Shown here one piece after another: positions 14,456-21,836 of a DNA stretch of 64,000 bases. The first letter of the stretch is position 1, and each line of letters opens with the position of its first letter. The position numbers and the translations under genes were made by a program. Source of the stretch: Vescimonas fastidiosa (lineage in GTDB: Bacteria > Bacillota > Clostridia > Oscillospirales > Oscillospiraceae); NCBI RefSeq assembly GCF_018326305.1, contig NZ_AP023415.1, positions 620,001 through 684,000 on the forward strand, written 5' to 3'. The notes under the pieces were generated by a model that made no database searches, was not told where the DNA came from, and was given only the letters and a program-made list of their open reading frames with translations.

Positions 14456-15262
14456 TTATTCCTCCTCCACCGGCAAGACAAGGCGGGAGCAGTAGCGTTG
14501 GGCATTGATCTCCCGGCCTGTGTAGGGAGCTACAATGCCCAGTACACGGGGCGGGGCATTGGGCTTCAGACCCCGAGCCTTTACCTCTCTGCCCAGGGTC
14601 AGCCACGCCTCGTCCATGCCGCCGTATTCGCCGTAGTAGAGTACCGAGAGCGCCCGGCACTCCGGTAACACCACAGCCTCGGCCGGGGCTTTATCCGCCC
14701 GCAGCGGAACGCAGACATCAAAGGAAAAGGGATCCTTGCCGATATACCCCTCCAAAAAATCTTTTCGGTCTGAGATAGTAAAAAGCGGATCATCTGACAG
14801 TATATAGCCCTTTCGTATACACTCATGGTACAGGGCGTACATGGCGTTGTACTTTTCCTGGCCGGTGTGTCCCCAGTAGCGACGCATGATGCAGGTAACA
14901 GCAGGCAGCGTTATTACTTGTACGGACATACCGGCCTTTTCCCGTACCCGCAGACGAAGCTCCTCCACGCTGCGTTGAAAATCGTGCAAATGCTCCACCA
15001 GAGTTGCGAGTATATCGGTGGCTTCTCCGCCCCGGACGAAGTAGTTGATAATCTGCTCATTACTTATGCCCATGGACTTGAACTTCTCTATTTGCATGAT
15101 ACGGGCCACATTATGATTGTCGTAGTAGCGGCGGCCGCTGTCAGGCGCGATGTAGGCCGGGGTTAACAGTCCCTTTTCCTCCATGCGCAGGAGCGTGCTG
15201 CGGGAGAGACCGCAGGCCCGGGCAGCCTCCGTAATTTGGAAAAGTTCTTTTTCCATTCCCAT
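14456..15262 (-). CDS. MerR-family regulator with GyrI-like effector domain
   Basis: The 268-residue protein has an N-terminal winged-helix MerR domain (residues 3-75: FQITEAARACGLSRSTLLR, then GRRYYDNHNVARIMQI), a dimerisation helix to about residue 115, and a C-terminal GyrI/BmrR-like ligand-binding domain (about 120-268). Such proteins bind small hydrophobic or cationic compounds and twist the promoter to activate export genes. No efflux gene is adjacent, so the target is unknown. The start at 15262 has GGAGG 8 nt upstream. Confidence 0.85.
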   Translation of the reverse strand: MGMEKELFQITEAARACGLSRSTLLRMEEKGLLTPAYIAPDSGRRYYDNHNVARIMQIEKFKSMGISNEQIINYFVRGGEATDILATLVEHLHDFQRSVEELRLRVREKAGMSVQVITLPAVTCIMRRYWGHTGQEKYNAMYALYHECIRKGYILSDDPLFTISDRKDFLEGYIGKDPFSFDVCVPLRADKAPAEAVVLPECRALSVLYYGEYGGMDEAWLTLGREVKARGLKPNAPPRVLGIVAPYTGREINAQRYCSRLVLPVEEE

Positions 15263-15319
15263 TGCAAAAACCTCCAAAAAAGCGCTTGCTTCGTTCATAG
15301 GTGAACGGATTATAATACT

Positions 15320-15349
15320 ATTATAGAAAATAGGTTTTGAGATTGTCAA
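15320..15349 (-). promoter_or_regulatory. sigma-A promoter and possible MerR operator
   Basis: On the minus strand a perfect TTGACA (15349-15344) and TATAAT (15325-15320) are separated by 18 nt. The dyad AAAATAG (15327-15333) / CTATTTT (15353-15359) brackets the -35 and spacer and could be an autoregulatory operator. The gene served is the MerR-type regulator. Confidence 0.7.
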
Positions 15350-15394: not shown

Positions 15395-15967
15395 ATTTCA
15401 ATCCGCGCACCCCTTACGGGGTGCGACCTCCGGTCAGCTCATCAAGATAGCGGCACTTCATATTTCAATCCACGCACCCCTCGCGGGGTGCGACTGCCAT
15501 AGATTCACCTCACCCTCATGGCTTCGTCATTTCAATCCACGCACCCCTTACGGGGTGCGACCACCCGGCTCGATGCAGTAGCAGGCAGGGCCATCATTTC
15601 AATCCACGCACCCCTTGCGGGGTGCGACCCTGGTGACGCTGGTGACCTGTACGCCCTTTGGGGTATTTCAATCCACGCACCCCTTGCGGGGTGCGACGTT
15701 GCTCCTTTCCATGCCCGAGTCGGGCACACACATTTCAATCCACGCACCCCTTGCGGGGTGCGACAGCGGGAGCAGAACTTCTTGCGGTTCCTGGTCTCAT
15801 TTCAATCCACGCGCCCCTCGCGGGGTGCGACTTCGTCAGCGGCGGCGTTCTGACCGTGCTGGGCATATTTCAATCCACGCACCCCTTGCGGGGTGCGATG
15901 GCTCCTCACCCAGCAGATCACTGACAGTGCATCCATTTCAATCCACGCACCCCTTGCGGGGTGCCCG
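15395..15967 (-). CRISPR. type I-C CRISPR array, 9 repeats and 8 spacers
   Basis: Repeats of 33 nt start at 15395, 15462, 15529, 15596, 15665, 15732, 15799, 15867 and 15935. Spacers are 34, 34, 34, 36, 34, 34, 35 and 35 nt. In transcript orientation (minus strand) the repeat begins GTCGCACCCC, has a GCACCCC/GGGGTGC stem and ends GTGGATTGAAAT, as in type I-C. Repeat variants: TTAC loops at 15395 and 15529, TCGC at 15462 and 15799, and one changed end base at 15899. The repeat nearest the cas genes (15935-15967) has lost its first three bases (CGG in place of GTC). No leader is present; the array joins the cas4 fragment and is presumably transcribed by read-through from the cas operon. Confidence 0.97.
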
Positions 15968-16234
15968 TTTTTCCCCGGCGGAATTCCAACACATCGCAGG
16001 CGCCGGACACACCCAGTGTCCGGGAAAAATGCGCATATCCCGGGTGACGAGGAGGTCTCCCCGGCTCTCGGTAAATCCACCGTTGTGGGCGTTTTCGTGA
16101 AGGATCGCTCCATCGGTGGTGCGGAAATTTTCCGCCCACTGGTTCTCGATATAGATAAGCGCCCACTGGCGGCGGCAGAACTTGAAGTGCTGCAAACCGG
16201 AGAGTTGGAGGAAATCCTCCTCGGGATAAATCAC
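15965..16234 (-). pseudogene. cas4: Cas4 (type I-C), truncated and frameshifted
   Basis: The frame opens at a GTG (16234) that overlaps the cas7 stop. It reads the Cas4 N-terminus with LSGLQHFKFCRRQWAL (first Fe-S cysteine), WAENFRTTDGAILHE and SRGDLLVTRDMRIF. At an A5 run (16025-16029 on the plus strand) one base appears to be missing. The expected continuation SRTLGVSGACDVLEF, with the RecB-type aspartate, lies in another frame. After about 23 further codons the homology ends abruptly inside a CRISPR repeat. The nuclease core and the remaining cysteines are lost. Cas4 normally trims prespacers for Cas1-Cas2; this copy cannot. Confidence 0.88.
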
Positions 16235-17121
16235 CCCATCCGTGTGCAGATTACGCCCTCCGGCAGTTTCTCTTCGTCCACGGTGACGGCATAATCGTCA
16301 TAGCATCTAGGCGTAGTCACACCGTCCTTTCGTGCCGCCTTCACCAGTTCAAAGAGCTTATGGGCAGGGGCACAGCCCAGCTCACAGTCATGCTTGAAAA
16401 CGATCAGTTCCCGGACGGCCATCTTGCCCCGCGCGGCGGAGTGGTCATTTTCAAACATATTCAAAATGGCAGTCCACAGCAGGTCAAGATCCTCCTGAGA
16501 AAAGCCGGTGGTCTTACGGGCGAGGTTGGCGGAAACATAACCCTCCACGCGATACAGGCCGTAGGGTACGATGTACTTGCGGCCCATCTCCGTGCCCTTC
16601 TTCTCCGCGTCCGCCTCGGTAGTGATGGCCACGCGGGTGATGGTCACCTCCTGCGGCAAAATAGGATCGACGCTGCGGGCAAAGCCCAGCTGCACTGGTC
16701 CCCGCACCTGACCGCAGTTGAGGGCCCCCTTCACAAAGGTGGTCATCACCGCGCCGAAGGTGCGGATATCGTAGAAGTTGGAGCACATGAAGTCCCGGAG
16801 CTTTTCATCCAGATGCTCGTCCTTTTTCTTTGCATCCTTCAGCTTGTCCGGATCAACCCCTACATAGGCGCAGGCTTCCTTGTCGCTGGTGTTCAGAGGA
16901 ACGCCGTCCTTGATATAGATGCGATAGCCGCTCTCCCCCTCCTTGGCGGTCTCCACATAGTTGCGGATCTTGCGCTTGAGGCACACATCCGTCACAAGGC
17001 CGTAGCCGGTCTCGGGGTCCACGCGGGGCATATTGCCCGCATCAGGGTCGCCGTTTGGATTACCGTTCTCCACATCGAACAGCACCACAAATTCATACCG
17101 GTTCTTGATGGGTTCAGACAT
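16231..17121 (-). CDS. cas7c: type I-C Cascade backbone subunit Cas7 (Csd2)
   Basis: The 296-residue RAMP protein forms the helical backbone that coats the crRNA spacer. Typical Csd2 features are YEFVVLFDVENGNPNGDPDAG near the N-terminus, PRVDPETGYGLVTDVCLKRKIR near 40, and DIRTFGAVM near 120. The start at 17121 (MSEPIKNRY) lies inside the end of cas8c (8-nt overlap) and has AAGGAGGA upstream. The stop overlaps the cas4 GTG, so all cas genes from cas5 onward are tightly coupled. The gene appears intact. Confidence 0.96.
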   Translation of the reverse strand: MSEPIKNRYEFVVLFDVENGNPNGDPDAGNMPRVDPETGYGLVTDVCLKRKIRNYVETAKEGESGYRIYIKDGVPLNTSDKEACAYVGVDPDKLKDAKKKDEHLDEKLRDFMCSNFYDIRTFGAVMTTFVKGALNCGQVRGPVQLGFARSVDPILPQEVTITRVAITTEADAEKKGTEMGRKYIVPYGLYRVEGYVSANLARKTTGFSQEDLDLLWTAILNMFENDHSAARGKMAVRELIVFKHDCELGCAPAHKLFELVKAARKDGVTTPRCYDDYAVTVDEEKLPEGVICTRMG

Positions 17122-18856
17122 TGTTCTCTTCCTCCTTTTTTGTAAATCGCTTCTGTGTTTGATGATAGTAACCGAGGTCAAAAGCCCCCTGCTGTGCCAG
17201 CGTCATGCGAGCAGGGTAGCTTTCACCTAAAATGCCCTTGAGCGCCATAACCTGCTTGTCATAGTAAACACGCTGTCCGCCCTCCAGCTTGCGCAGATGC
17301 TTCTGGTACAGGTTGTTCAGCACAGGGAAAATGCTGGCGGGCATCGCCGCCGCGGAGTTGAAATACTTATCCTTGATGGTCGCATTGATACCGGGATTCG
17401 CGGTCTGCTGTACCGCCTCGTAGACGGAAAACAGGCGGCCCAGCGTATAGGCAGTATTGGTACTTGCTTCATTGAGACTCACGGTCAAAACCTCCTTCGG
17501 ACAGTCCTCGTGTGGATTTTTCAGATAATAGGCCTTGATGATCGCCGCCCGTCCCCATGTGATATGGCGCTCCGCCCGGATACGGAGCATCGTTGCCTCC
17601 AACAGAGAGGCGGTATAGCGTCCGCCGGAAAAAATGGCCCGGGCCGTCGCGCCGGCCATAATGGGAGAGGGCGCTTTATCGCGGGAATTCAAGTTCACCG
17701 TCTCCCGCAGCAGCGCCCACAACGGCAGATAAGTGAATTTTTCATAGGAAGGACGAACGATCTCCATACGCTCATAGTGGTCGTTGACATTCTTCATCAG
17801 CGCCCCGAAGCTGTCCCGCAGGAAAAAGCGGACGGAGAGCCGAGCCGCGTTGGGAGCCAGCCCCAAAATGTAGAACGGGCGGTTGGGGTCAATGCCCAGG
17901 TCGTCACAGGGTAAACCGTTTGCTAAGCGCTTGAGGGCTGCCCGAAGGTCATCGTCCGACAGCCCCTCTTTTCCACCGCCGAACAGCGCTGCCACGCCGA
18001 AGGTCTGGTAGATGTCCTCCGCACCCTCCGCCCAGCAGACTACGGTGGTATCGCCGATGGTCTGCACATTTTCCTTATCGGCAAGCAGATGGTTCAGTGC
18101 GGCGGTATAGGCAAAGGCGGCGTATTTCCCCACCGGGGCGTTGAAGCTCTGCTCGTGTCCGTAGGAACAGAACGCTGGAGCATTGAAGGATACAAGCGCC
18201 GCACCGCTGGACTGCGCGTCCCGAACACCCTTCACCGACGGATGTACGGCGGTGATCTCATCCTCCCTGCCTGTTACAAGGCACTGCATTCGCACCGCAT
18301 CCGTACCGCCGCTCTCCCGATACCGCTGCCATGCCTCTCGGATGGCGGCATCCTCCTGCGGGTAGATCCCGGCAGCGCGGAACAGGAGATTTCCGCCTGA
18401 TATTACCTCATCAAGCAGTCCGGCAAGGGCCGGGTGCTCCGCCGCATTTTCCGGTTTCCAGTTGTCGAAAAATGCCAGAATCGAGTGGGCCACAGGGGAA
18501 TCAACACCGTCCAGAACCGCGTGGTGCAGCTTCGCTGCTGCGGCGAAACAGTTTCGGCTGCGCTCGGGCTTACCTTTTTGGTCGATACCGAACAGATAGG
18601 AAGAGTTGTCCCACAAGAAATTCGCGGCGATACCCACCGTGCGCTTCACAGCTGCAGGCAGCGCCATAGACTGCGGCTGTTGGACGGTTTTCTTTCCCTT
18701 CGTCACATCCTCCATTGTGGGAACGACCTGCGTCAGTCCGCCGTTTTCATCCAGATACAGTGCAAAGCTAATCTTCGCAGGGGCCCAGCCGGGAGCGTCG
18801 ATCTTTCCCTGTGCAAGCAGATCCTCATAATACCGCGTCAGTGCCTGCAGAATCAT
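17114..18856 (-). CDS. cas8c: type I-C Cascade large subunit Cas8c (Csd1)
   Basis: The 580-residue protein is the type I-C large subunit, which recognises the PAM and helps target DNA unwinding. The N-terminal MILQALTRYYEDL start, the stretch KRTVGIAANFLWDNSSYLFG near residue 70, and the C-terminal part with SYPARMTLAQQGAFDLGYYHQ are characteristic of Csd1. In other I-C systems an internal start within cas8c yields the small subunit Cas11c. The C-terminal third could encode one here, but I did not establish the site. It overlaps cas5 by 4 nt (ATGA) and cas7 by 8 nt. Confidence 0.96.
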   Translation of the reverse strand: MILQALTRYYEDLLAQGKIDAPGWAPAKISFALYLDENGGLTQVVPTMEDVTKGKKTVQQPQSMALPAAVKRTVGIAANFLWDNSSYLFGIDQKGKPERSRNCFAAAAKLHHAVLDGVDSPVAHSILAFFDNWKPENAAEHPALAGLLDEVISGGNLLFRAAGIYPQEDAAIREAWQRYRESGGTDAVRMQCLVTGREDEITAVHPSVKGVRDAQSSGAALVSFNAPAFCSYGHEQSFNAPVGKYAAFAYTAALNHLLADKENVQTIGDTTVVCWAEGAEDIYQTFGVAALFGGGKEGLSDDDLRAALKRLANGLPCDDLGIDPNRPFYILGLAPNAARLSVRFFLRDSFGALMKNVNDHYERMEIVRPSYEKFTYLPLWALLRETVNLNSRDKAPSPIMAGATARAIFSGGRYTASLLEATMLRIRAERHITWGRAAIIKAYYLKNPHEDCPKEVLTVSLNEASTNTAYTLGRLFSVYEAVQQTANPGINATIKDKYFNSAAAMPASIFPVLNNLYQKHLRKLEGGQRVYYDKQVMALKGILGESYPARMTLAQQGAFDLGYYHQTQKRFTKKEEENNV

Positions 18857-19515
18857 CTCCTCACCTCCCCGCTATCCGGCGGCGGAACCGTCATCACGCC
18901 GTTGACCAACTCCGCCCGGAAGAATATAGGCGTGATGTTTTCGGGGTCACGATAGTCCATATCCCAGAGTATCCACCCCAAATCCTTTGCGCCCTTCAGC
19001 TCGTCGGGACAGGGCGGCAGAGCGGCACAGCGGCGGAAATGGGCGGGAAATTCCCGTGTACCGAGGTAGGGCATACTGTAACACTGTCCTCGTTCCAACC
19101 GCCGCTTGATAATGTCCTGAAATTTTCCGTGGTTGTCCCCCGGTGCGGCGGCAGGCGTCATCTCAAAGTGGGCATCGATGACATAATGGACATCCCGCAG
19201 CACCATAGCCGCCCGTTGCTGGATGCTCTCCGGGGTAGCCAGATACAGTTCTCCCACCCCGCCGTTCATCACTGCTTTCACTTTATTAGCGCTGATGATG
19301 TCCTTCACCTCGTTACGGCGGATATTGGTGAAGCGGATGGGACTGCACACATGGATGCGGTCGATCACCCATCTGAGACCAGGGTGCCAGTAAATGCTCT
19401 CCAACAGCCCTCGCGCTGCCGAAGGCGTCATCACATCATAACTGACGCGCTCCGTCTTCATCTCTGGCCGCGTGAAGCATGCGTAGTCACCCCAGACCTC
19501 CACTTGGATTGGCAT
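18853..19515 (-). CDS. cas5c: type I-C pre-crRNA endonuclease Cas5 (Cas5d/Cas5c)
   Basis: In type I-C, Cas5 cleaves the precursor crRNA and caps its 5' handle; no Cas6 is needed and none is seen. The 220-residue length fits. Features are VEVWGDYACFTRPEMKTERV at the N-terminus, YDVMTPSAARGLLESIYWHP near 26-45 and RFTNIRRNEV near 61. The start at 19515 has GAGGAG 7 nt upstream. It is separated from cas3 by 73 nt that contain a TCCTATAGGA palindrome inside an AGGTG/CACCT dyad, a possible control point between cas3 and Cascade genes. Confidence 0.95.
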   Translation of the reverse strand: MPIQVEVWGDYACFTRPEMKTERVSYDVMTPSAARGLLESIYWHPGLRWVIDRIHVCSPIRFTNIRRNEVKDIISANKVKAVMNGGVGELYLATPESIQQRAAMVLRDVHYVIDAHFEMTPAAAPGDNHGKFQDIIKRRLERGQCYSMPYLGTREFPAHFRRCAALPPCPDELKGAKDLGWILWDMDYRDPENITPIFFRAELVNGVMTVPPPDSGEVRR

Positions 19516-19588: not shown

Positions 19589-21745
19589 TCATATTAAATC
19601 AGCTCTTCCTGTCTCTGGTTCCAGCGCAAGTCCCGTACGCTCGTCATATAATGTCAGATCGGCGAGAATGGCGCTGTCCTCGTCCAGAGCGGGAATGTCC
19701 CGCGCAGTCAGCAGCGCACCGGCGGCATACAGCGCCTTGAAATGCTGGTCATATACAGAAACGGCATACCGGCCCAGCTTGCGATAGAGGTTCTTGGAGC
19801 ATTTTCCTTCCCTTAGTTGCTCAATGAGCGCTGCACCCTCGCCAACGGGCACATAGACCGTATATGTATTTTCATCGATGAAGTGAAAATGCTCTGCCAC
19901 GGTGCGCAACGGCAGACTGTAGCCGCTGATGCCCATTTCAAGGGCTTTGACAACGCCATACTTGTCAAGCGTTTCCCCGCTCAAGGTCCGCAGTTCACGA
20001 AAATAGCGCTGCATGGTCTCCTGTGCGGCAGGGTCACGCCCGCCATCCAGTGCATGGCGCGTTGCGCCCACAGCCGTGCGGAACAAAAGCGGCGGAAGCT
20101 CCGTCCGCTCGAAGACCGTTACGATACTCTCATCTGCCGCCCGCTTTCCCTCCCGGTTGCAGCGCCCCGCCGCCTGCAGAATGGAATCCAGTCCAGCCAG
20201 CTCACGGTAGACTGTAGGAAAATCCACATCTACACCCGCCTCAATAAGAGATGTAGACACCACACGGCATGGTTCGCCGTCCTTCAATCTCTGCCGAATT
20301 TCCTCTAAAATTGCCTGTCTCTGCGTAGGGATCATCAGGGTAGAAAGATGGAAACATCCCTCTTTGGGCAGGCGGTCAAAAATCCGCTGCGCCGCCCTGC
20401 GGCTGTTGACCACGCAGAGTACCTGTCTGTGATTGCTCAATCGCTCCGTCAGCGCATCATCCTCCAAAACCCCGGCCTGCCGGAAGGTCACACGGCGAAA
20501 GCGATCATATATCTCCTCTGTTTGGGGGCACAGCTCCATCACGGTATGCCCTGGCGCATAGGTACGCAGTAAATCACTCAGGGACGGCTGCGTAGCGGTA
20601 CACAGCACCAGGGTGGAGCCGACATACTCTGCCAGCGATGCCATTGCCGCCACACAGGGACGCAGGTGGCACAGGGGCAGCATTTGCGCTTCATCAAAAA
20701 TGATGACGCTGTTTGCAAGGTTGTGAAGCTTGCGGCATTTGGAGGAGCGGTTGGCGTATAAGGAATCGAAAAACCGGGCCGCCGTTGTCACCACCACCGG
20801 CATATCCCAATTTTCCGATGCCAGCGCCCGGCGTATCTCCTCGGGCGACGCGCCATCGGAGAGGTCAAACTCAATGCCGGAGTGGTGCTCCAGCACATTG
20901 CCGCCGCCCAGAATATTCCGAAACACCTCCGCATTCTGCTCGATGATAGAGGTGTAGGGAATGATGTAGATCACTCGCTTCATGCCGTGAGTTACTGCGT
21001 GACGCAGGGCAAACGCCAGCGATGTAACCGTTTTTCCGCCGCCGGTCGGCACGGTAAGCGTGTAAATGCCTTTCGGTTTACACCCCGCCTCTATGCAGGT
21101 ATTCAGCATTTTGCATCGGAGATGGTTCAGTTCCGTTTTCGGATTTTGCCACAGTGCGATATAGGCCTCCAACCGCTTGAGCAGCGTCGGCAGGTCGTCG
21201 TAACCGCCACGGCCCTGCTCTCCGTTCATAAACCGCTCCGTGTCCAAAAAATCCGCGTCCACCAAGCAGGAATAGAGCATTCGTGTCCGGAATGACAATT
21301 TCCACAGATCCCGCTCCGGCGTTTCCGGTGGGATCCGCGGTAGCGCTACACCACTCTCACCGCAGCGATCCAAATACCGCTCCTCCAAGCCCTTTTTGAG
21401 TCGTCCGTAAAGGGTTGCATCCCCTGCCTGATCGGTTCGTGGGTTTCCGAAATCAGGAAGTCCACTATGATGCCCCGCTACACAGGCAGCAGCACATGTG
21501 CGTAAAAGCCGTGCGCAGGCCACTGCACCGGCGGTGGCGTGATCCACAATGGGACCGCCCTCCAGTAAGCGTTTTTGGAAGCCATCGGTGCATTTGCCAA
21601 TATCATGGGCAAGACCCATCAGCTCTCCCTCTGCCTCTGCTCCGAACTCGCCTGCGAATGAGCGGCATAGCGCAGCGGTTCCCGACAGATGCTCTGCTAT
21701 CATCTGTCGGCGGCCATCGTCTGAAATGTGAGCATAATAGTCCAT
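19589..21745 (-). CDS. cas3: type I-C helicase-nuclease Cas3
   Basis: The 718-residue protein unwinds and degrades DNA marked by Cascade. The HD nuclease domain comes first: His47-Asp48 in LAHDIGK, Asp68-His69 and the GHHSG motif at 91-95. The superfamily 2 helicase follows, with Walker A TVPTGGGKT at 231-239, DEAQ at 351-354, motif III LCTATQPSL near 390, and a C-terminal helicase lobe with SLIEAGVDVDFPTVYRE and QAAGRCNREGKR. All catalytic motifs look intact. The start at 21745 has GGAGG 7 nt upstream. An intrinsic-terminator-like hairpin precedes that site. Confidence 0.97.
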   Translation of the reverse strand: MDYYAHISDDGRRQMIAEHLSGTAALCRSFAGEFGAEAEGELMGLAHDIGKCTDGFQKRLLEGGPIVDHATAGAVACARLLRTCAAACVAGHHSGLPDFGNPRTDQAGDATLYGRLKKGLEERYLDRCGESGVALPRIPPETPERDLWKLSFRTRMLYSCLVDADFLDTERFMNGEQGRGGYDDLPTLLKRLEAYIALWQNPKTELNHLRCKMLNTCIEAGCKPKGIYTLTVPTGGGKTVTSLAFALRHAVTHGMKRVIYIIPYTSIIEQNAEVFRNILGGGNVLEHHSGIEFDLSDGASPEEIRRALASENWDMPVVVTTAARFFDSLYANRSSKCRKLHNLANSVIIFDEAQMLPLCHLRPCVAAMASLAEYVGSTLVLCTATQPSLSDLLRTYAPGHTVMELCPQTEEIYDRFRRVTFRQAGVLEDDALTERLSNHRQVLCVVNSRRAAQRIFDRLPKEGCFHLSTLMIPTQRQAILEEIRQRLKDGEPCRVVSTSLIEAGVDVDFPTVYRELAGLDSILQAAGRCNREGKRAADESIVTVFERTELPPLLFRTAVGATRHALDGGRDPAAQETMQRYFRELRTLSGETLDKYGVVKALEMGISGYSLPLRTVAEHFHFIDENTYTVYVPVGEGAALIEQLREGKCSKNLYRKLGRYAVSVYDQHFKALYAAGALLTARDIPALDEDSAILADLTLYDERTGLALEPETGRADLI

Positions 21746-21773
21746 TTCATTTCCTCCAAAAGAAAAAAAATCA

Positions 21774-21794
21774 GCCCTGTAATTATTACAGGGC
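21774..21794 (-). promoter_or_regulatory. terminator-like hairpin in the cas operon leader
   Basis: In the minus-strand transcript GCCCTGTAAT pairs with ATTACAGGGC and is followed by TGATTTTTTTTCTTTT, then the cas3 ribosome binding site. It lies between the putative cas promoter (21837-21865) and cas3, about 43 nt after the expected transcription start, so it could act as an attenuator. Confidence 0.7.
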
Positions 21795-21836
21795 CAGTTC
21801 CAAAGACGGCCGAAAAACAGCCCTTACTCTGTCAAT

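Follow-up and report, generated by a model that had tools for sequence, protein, structure and literature searches.

Can a type I-C CRISPR-Cas locus that has lost its means of acquiring spacers go on as a defence with a fixed memory, or is it a remnant in decay? A CRISPR locus without acquisition genes is easily taken for a dying one, although several of the lineages described below keep their effector genes after the acquisition genes, and often the leader, have been lost. The case at hand lies in a 64,000-nucleotide stretch of the Vescimonas fastidiosa genome (contig NZ_AP023415.1, positions 620,001 to 684,000; the window), for which the original prediction proposed that one deletion had removed the end of cas4, cas1, cas2 and the leader.

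Effector genes, cas4 stump and array

The locus consists of the following features.

19589..21745, minus strand: cas3, HD nuclease and helicase, full length, 718 aa (over the cut-offs of TIGR01587 and TIGR01596)
18853..19515, minus strand: cas5c, by family a pre-crRNA processing enzyme and Cascade subunit (TIGR01876, 167 bits, cut-off 85)
17114..18856, minus strand: cas8c, 580 aa (TIGR01863, 424 bits, cut-off 219)
16231..17121, minus strand: cas7 (Csd2; TIGR02589, 351 bits, cut-off 182)
15965..16234, minus strand: cas4 stump of 270 nt, in which about 70 in-frame codons are followed by a frameshift and then, as far as the junction, by homology in another frame over about 20 codons
15964..15965, minus strand: deletion junction, cas4 joined to repeat nucleotide 4
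15395..15967, minus strand: CRISPR array, nine repeats of 33 nt and eight spacers of 34–36 nt
15935..15967, minus strand: first repeat, in which bases 15965–15967 are cas4 sequence instead of repeat and the 3' handle is kept
15428..15461, minus strand: spacer 8, encoding MKCRYLDELTG, with 30 of 34 bases matching the fecal phage-like contig MT835766
15395..15427, minus strand: last repeat, at the trailer end, with 2 mismatches

As had been predicted, none of the four effector genes is truncated, and each scores over its NCBIfam cut-offs, I-C or Cas3; for Cas8c and Cas7 these cut-offs (TIGR01863, TIGR02589) are specific to type I-C. Cas3 covers 99.7% of the local Cas3 profile in a single frame, and the cas7 start was set at MSEPIK in a reading frame that is open to 17181. 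The predicted genes cas3-cas5c-cas8c-cas7 follow the type I-C operon order on one strand. In type I-C systems cas8c also contains an internally translated Cas11c, Cas5c is the pre-crRNA processing enzyme, and the leader is the usual promoter of the array.

The cas4 gene had been described as ending after roughly 93 codons. This holds for its length (270 nt, about 90 codons) but not for its reading in one frame, which is broken near codon 70 by a one-base frameshift in a five-base T tract (16025–16029, minus strand) ahead of the junction. Past this tract the Cas4 homology runs in another frame (LGVSGACDVLEFRRGKTG) and reaches the junction at about 15964/15965, where possible microhomology between cas4 and the repeat (GGCACCCC) makes the breakpoint imprecise. 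The frameshift is a second lesion beside the deletion and could be either real decay or a sequencing error. The 98-aa cas4 open reading frame of the window gives no family match at E 0.001.

Among the intact loci compared, the closest is L050, from another genus of the same family, with identities to the window of 80% for Cas8c, 91% for Cas7, 80% for Cas5 and 69% for Cas3. (A Cas8c single-protein search of GTDB genome contigs gave one relative, and a separate genome search yielded more.) In L050 cas4-cas1-cas2 are present and are followed by a leader stretch of 181 nt before the first repeat; in the window the stump abuts the array, with cas4 sequence adjoining nucleotide 4 of the first repeat, so the leader is indeed missing. 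Relative to L050 the window lacks 1,901 nt, comprising the rest of cas4, cas1, cas2, the leader and the first three repeat bases. The two repeats differ by one base and have the same orientation relative to the cas genes, the L050 leader being on the cas side of its array. An intact cas4-cas1-cas2-leader arrangement in a relative with a near-identical repeat supports the predicted deletion, as does the genome-wide search described below.

Of the first 70 codons of the stump, 69 align with intact L050 Cas4 (82.6% identity over 69 aa), which is the conservation that a prediction based on 210 intact pairs of loci gives for an intact cas4 at that divergence (z −0.07). Comparisons with 15 intact neighbours showed lower conservation of the stump than predicted in 14 cases (z down to −2.8), a hint of some erosion. 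Taken together, these values suggest that the loss is probably recent, with some erosion of the stump.

The genome is assembled into three contigs totalling 2.50 Mb and is 97% complete, with the window inside a 1.5 Mb contig. Searches of the whole genome with Cas1, Cas2 and Cas4 Pfam profiles gave no matches at E 0.001; the same profiles detected Cas1, Cas2 and Cas4 in 9, 7 and 8 of 14 control genomes, respectively. The Cas1 of the I-C model likewise had no match in this genome or in those of L035, L057 and L090. The absence of cas1 and cas2, noted originally for the window, thus extends to the whole genome. A second array is also absent, since the repeat pattern (at most 2 mismatches) occurs across the genome only at the nine sites of the window. 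Neither adaptation in place nor borrowing from another system is therefore visible, save in the few percent of the genome that may be missing. The locus is an adaptation-less one, with effector genes and an array but no cas1-cas2, a frameshifted stump for cas4 and no leader, in a genome with no other detectable Cas1-Cas2.

The nine repeats stand out clearly from shuffled controls (100 shuffles gave a mean of 0.00 and a maximum of 0), and they are hairpin repeats with the end GGATTGAAAT, in keeping with type I-C. Comparison with the nine-repeat consensus bears out the description of the repeat at the joint: it agrees at 30 of 33 positions and differs only in its first three bases, CGG instead of GTC, so that it starts CGGGCACCCC... 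where GTCGCACCCC... is expected. It folds into a stable hairpin (−18.4 kcal/mol, z −4.5) in which 7 of the 8 stem pairs seen in the other folded repeats are retained and two outer pairs are new. The repeat at 15799–15831 has 2 mismatches, as does the last one, and degeneracy alone is therefore a weak guide to the direction of the array.

Transcription and spacer targets

Between cas7 and the array we found no promoter- or terminator-like site on the minus strand, and upstream of cas3 there are four promoter-like sites against 1.8 expected. A terminator-like hairpin with a T run lies just upstream of cas3 on the cas3 strand (21772–21796) and is perhaps an attenuator of the cas operon. Just past the array, a 12-of-12 sigma-70-like promoter at 15320–15349 on the minus strand probably serves a MerR-type regulator at 14456–15349.

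We consider it probable that the locus is an interference-only I-C system that arose by deletion, with a fixed spacer set and an array that is likely read through from the cas operon. A single deletion would have taken the rest of cas4, cas1, cas2 and the leader and joined cas4 to the leader-side repeat. With its eight spacers about 260 nt behind cas7 and in the same direction, the array would most likely be transcribed by read-through of the cas operon, and the transcript would be cut by Cas5c at the repeat hairpins to give crRNAs. Cascade (Cas5c, Cas8c and Cas7) together with Cas3 could then carry out interference from this set of eight spacers, and the locus would be a fixed, heritable and sequence-specific defence that is unable to learn. 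From the arrangement of the sequence we infer read-through transcription from the cas promoter, as originally proposed, as well as crRNA production, a frozen spacer set and present activity in this strain.

Only spacer 8, presumably the oldest because it is furthest from the lost leader, has recognisable homologues. These are all diverged, matching 26–30 of 34 bases in fecal phage-like contigs, and the encoded MKCRYLDELTG belongs to a protein whose frame stays open for about 1010 residues in the stretches read and which may be the SNF2-like helicase of integrative elements. In four of five homologues the preceding codon is Phe (TTT in three, TTC in one), which is compatible with a TTC PAM having once been present. 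A TTC PAM is described beside protospacers of a Xanthomonas I-C system in the accessible text of PMC8406640. The remaining array matches in phages and plasmids (20 listed of 23 and 36 records) were judged to be repeats or chance, leaving a plausible match in the phage collections for one of the eight spacers. Searches of IMG/VR viral contigs with 21-of-25-base patterns matched none of the eight, a result that does not establish old age. No self-target was recognised in the genome: apart from the array itself, the matches (18 of 19) are short (15–34 nt, best E 0.36), and the best of them covers spacer 4 at only 24 of 34 bases ungapped and was taken as chance.

Losses in relatives and selection after loss

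An order-level sample of 395 genomes (minimum completeness 90) gave a Cas8c match in 110, over the cut-off in 103, and 109 I-C loci were examined (106 fetched over the cut-off and three others of the sample). A full-length cas1 is present in 95 of these, 93 inside the fetched stretch and two (L118, L120) by Cas1 search, their cas1 being cut by or lying beyond the end of the stretch; this excludes the possibility that all relatives share the compact form. Four loci are cut by contig ends (L047, L114, L116, L125), three have disrupted adaptation genes (L036, L092, L115), and in L089 only partial cas8 and cas7 were found, with neither cas4-cas1-cas2 nor an array. The other six (the window, L035, L057, L090, L094 and L095) have an array without cas1-cas2 and were counted as five events.

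Outside this sample, in L015, from the genus of the window, some 20 codons of cas4 are fused to the final 20 or so of cas1, the array comes next, and the genome has no Cas1 match. When 400 genomes were searched at family level with a Cas7 and Cas1 query, the matches listed included at least five more loci of the same kind (L135, L136, L138, L139, L140), which are examples and not a rate. Each of these genomes has one match to the query, to Cas7; that of L140 (G565) is only 83% complete. The array of L135, whose repeats are visibly degenerate and too uneven for the array finder, was recognised by eye. The start of cas3 lies outside the fetched stretch in L135, L136, L139 and L140, and L090 and L138 show no cas3 within theirs. 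The adaptation-less L015, L035 and L057 have full-length copies of all four effector genes, as does the window. L137 and L141, with broken effector genes, were left out of the event count.

Separated by junction and taxon, without a tree, these 12 loci represent at least 11 losses that we judge to be separate. At least eight events are leaderless (the window, L015, L090, L094/L095, L135, L136, L139 and L140), and in three (L035, L057, L138) a leader-like stretch is wholly or partly kept. The junction clearly falls inside a repeat in five leaderless events (the window, L015, L090, L094/L095, L139) and likely does so in L140. L135 and L136 have a short stretch, possibly a cut spacer, before the first whole repeat, and we therefore claim no bias of junctions towards repeats. 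Nor are losses one-sided, since G065, G407 and G427 show the reverse, with cas1 kept and cas8c broken; G401 was rejected as a fourth such case, its cas8c being cut by a contig end.

Other rearrangements were also seen. L146, in G427, is a mirror case in which cas8c is mostly deleted and cas4-cas1-cas2 and the array are intact. Internal deletions of the adaptation module with the array kept (for example cas4-cas1 or cas1-cas2 joined) occur in L036 and in L143, L144 and L145, the latter three from the matches listed in the family-level search. In L118 and L120 the array directly follows cas7, and in L118 cas4-cas1 are placed after the array rather than before it.

Selection after loss could be followed in a lineage other than that of the window. 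L094 and L095 belong to two species of one genus and have one junction in common, where cas4 codon 7 meets the first repeat at about nucleotide 13, and their intact sister L088 aligns to L094 at 91% up to that point. The flanks of L094 and L095 are 93–95% identical over 13 kb, similar to the divergence of the loci. Assuming a single shared deletion with no later recombination, all divergence between the two postdates the loss. Over 1811 codons of cas3, cas5, cas8 and cas7 their dN/dS is 0.159 (95% bootstrap 0.123–0.199), and the branch values are 0.175 and 0.141, compared with 0.23 for the intact sister plus stem. The value of 0.16 indicates that in this lineage purifying selection continued at loci that had neither in-place adaptation nor a leader. 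In L095 cas3 and cas8 each contain a single nonsense codon, which shows that such loci can decay. Both genomes also carry a second I-C locus with another repeat.

The arrays of L094 and L095 (two and four spacers; L094:7150-7370 and L095:7150-7510, with cas8c on the plus strand) have similar degenerate last repeats and one leaderless junction but no spacer in common, as might result from losses in an ancestral array that was long. In the intact sister genome G151 the array query matched 125 times, on two contigs (L088 is on G151:C7; the other region is G151:C16:38346-58474), which suggests a very long array of the same repeat.

A broader reading, which we advance tentatively, is that I-C systems of this order may repeatedly switch from adaptive to fixed. 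The segment cas4-cas1-cas2-leader would be cut out up to the leader-side repeat and the array would become the 3' end of the operon, expressed by read-through, giving a hard-wired, RNA-guided, restriction-like system selected for over the lifetimes of species. If this is true, I-C adaptive immunity in this order repeatedly becomes fixed immunity by one class of deletion. The L094/L095 pair makes selection after the loss measurable, and it becomes possible to address a long-standing question, namely whether a frozen spacer memory pays on its own, and over what length of time. Arrays that are leaderless and operon-borne would, in addition, offer a natural example of crRNAs being expressed with no leader promoter.

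Alternative readings and known systems

The most serious alternative, which we think unlikely, is that the locus is dead: loss of the leader silenced the array, the effector genes are intact because the deletion is very recent, and decay has begun with the cas4 frameshift. That second lesion speaks for such a history, and the conservation of the stump relative to L050 fits a recent event. Decay is evident elsewhere too, in the two nonsense codons of L095, the partial or split effector genes of L089, L137 and L141, and the degenerate repeats of L135. Against this, the L094/L095 effector genes continued to experience strong purifying selection once the shared deletion had occurred, and full-length sets of all four in L015, L035 and L057 show that the window is not alone in keeping its effector complement.

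Two further explanations would leave the locus adaptive, and we give very little credence to either. Another Cas1-Cas2 in the cell might feed the window array, and adaptation-less loci can indeed borrow machinery, as reported for II-C/VI-B in Flavobacterium in the part of PMC8092290 available; moreover a second I-C locus is present in G362 and in G252, and no spacer occurs in both L094 and L095 despite their common junction. The genome of the window, of which about 3% may be missing, has no Cas1 or Cas2 profile match and no second array with its repeat, and the leader is gone, all of which makes such feeding highly improbable. A misassembly through the repeats might instead hide cas1, cas2 and the leader, the junction being at a repeat, where assemblies can fail. 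This too is scarcely credible, as the genome has three contigs, of which the one with the window spans 1.5 Mb, cas1 and cas2 were found nowhere else in that genome, and other genomes have comparable junctions, including one that two species share. We thus retain the interpretation of a deletion-derived, interference-only system.

Compared with complete type I-C systems (cas3-cas5c-cas8c-cas7-cas4-cas1-cas2-leader-array; L050, L016, L017), the window has the same gene order and families and, relative to L050, a 33-nt hairpin repeat one base different, but lacks cas1, cas2, most of cas4 and the leader, and has its array directly behind the cas4 stump. Adaptation-less loci are known from type IV, many type VI systems, a III-B locus and transposon-borne type I systems, according to the accessible parts of PMC8092290 and PMC8616872, and like the locus in the window they combine effector genes and an array without cas1-cas2. 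PMC8092290, in the text available, stresses borrowing from a second system, whereas the genome of the window has no Cas1 match and the leader has been lost as well. The nearest parallel in the available portion of PMC12596717 is the type I-B locus of Haloferax lucentense, a type I interference locus missing the same three genes, cas1, cas2 and cas4. It is provirus-encoded and sits beside a complete system on a megaplasmid, according to that portion; the locus in the window, by comparison, has lost its leader and has its array fused to the operon, and no second Cas1 was found in its genome. The literature searched, which was mostly without subscription papers and in part accessible only as excerpts, yielded no report of a recurrent, leaderless, operon-fused I-C form. 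Adaptation-less CRISPR loci as such are already known, and the locus in the window is an operon-fused, leaderless I-C variant of a form that appears to have arisen repeatedly.
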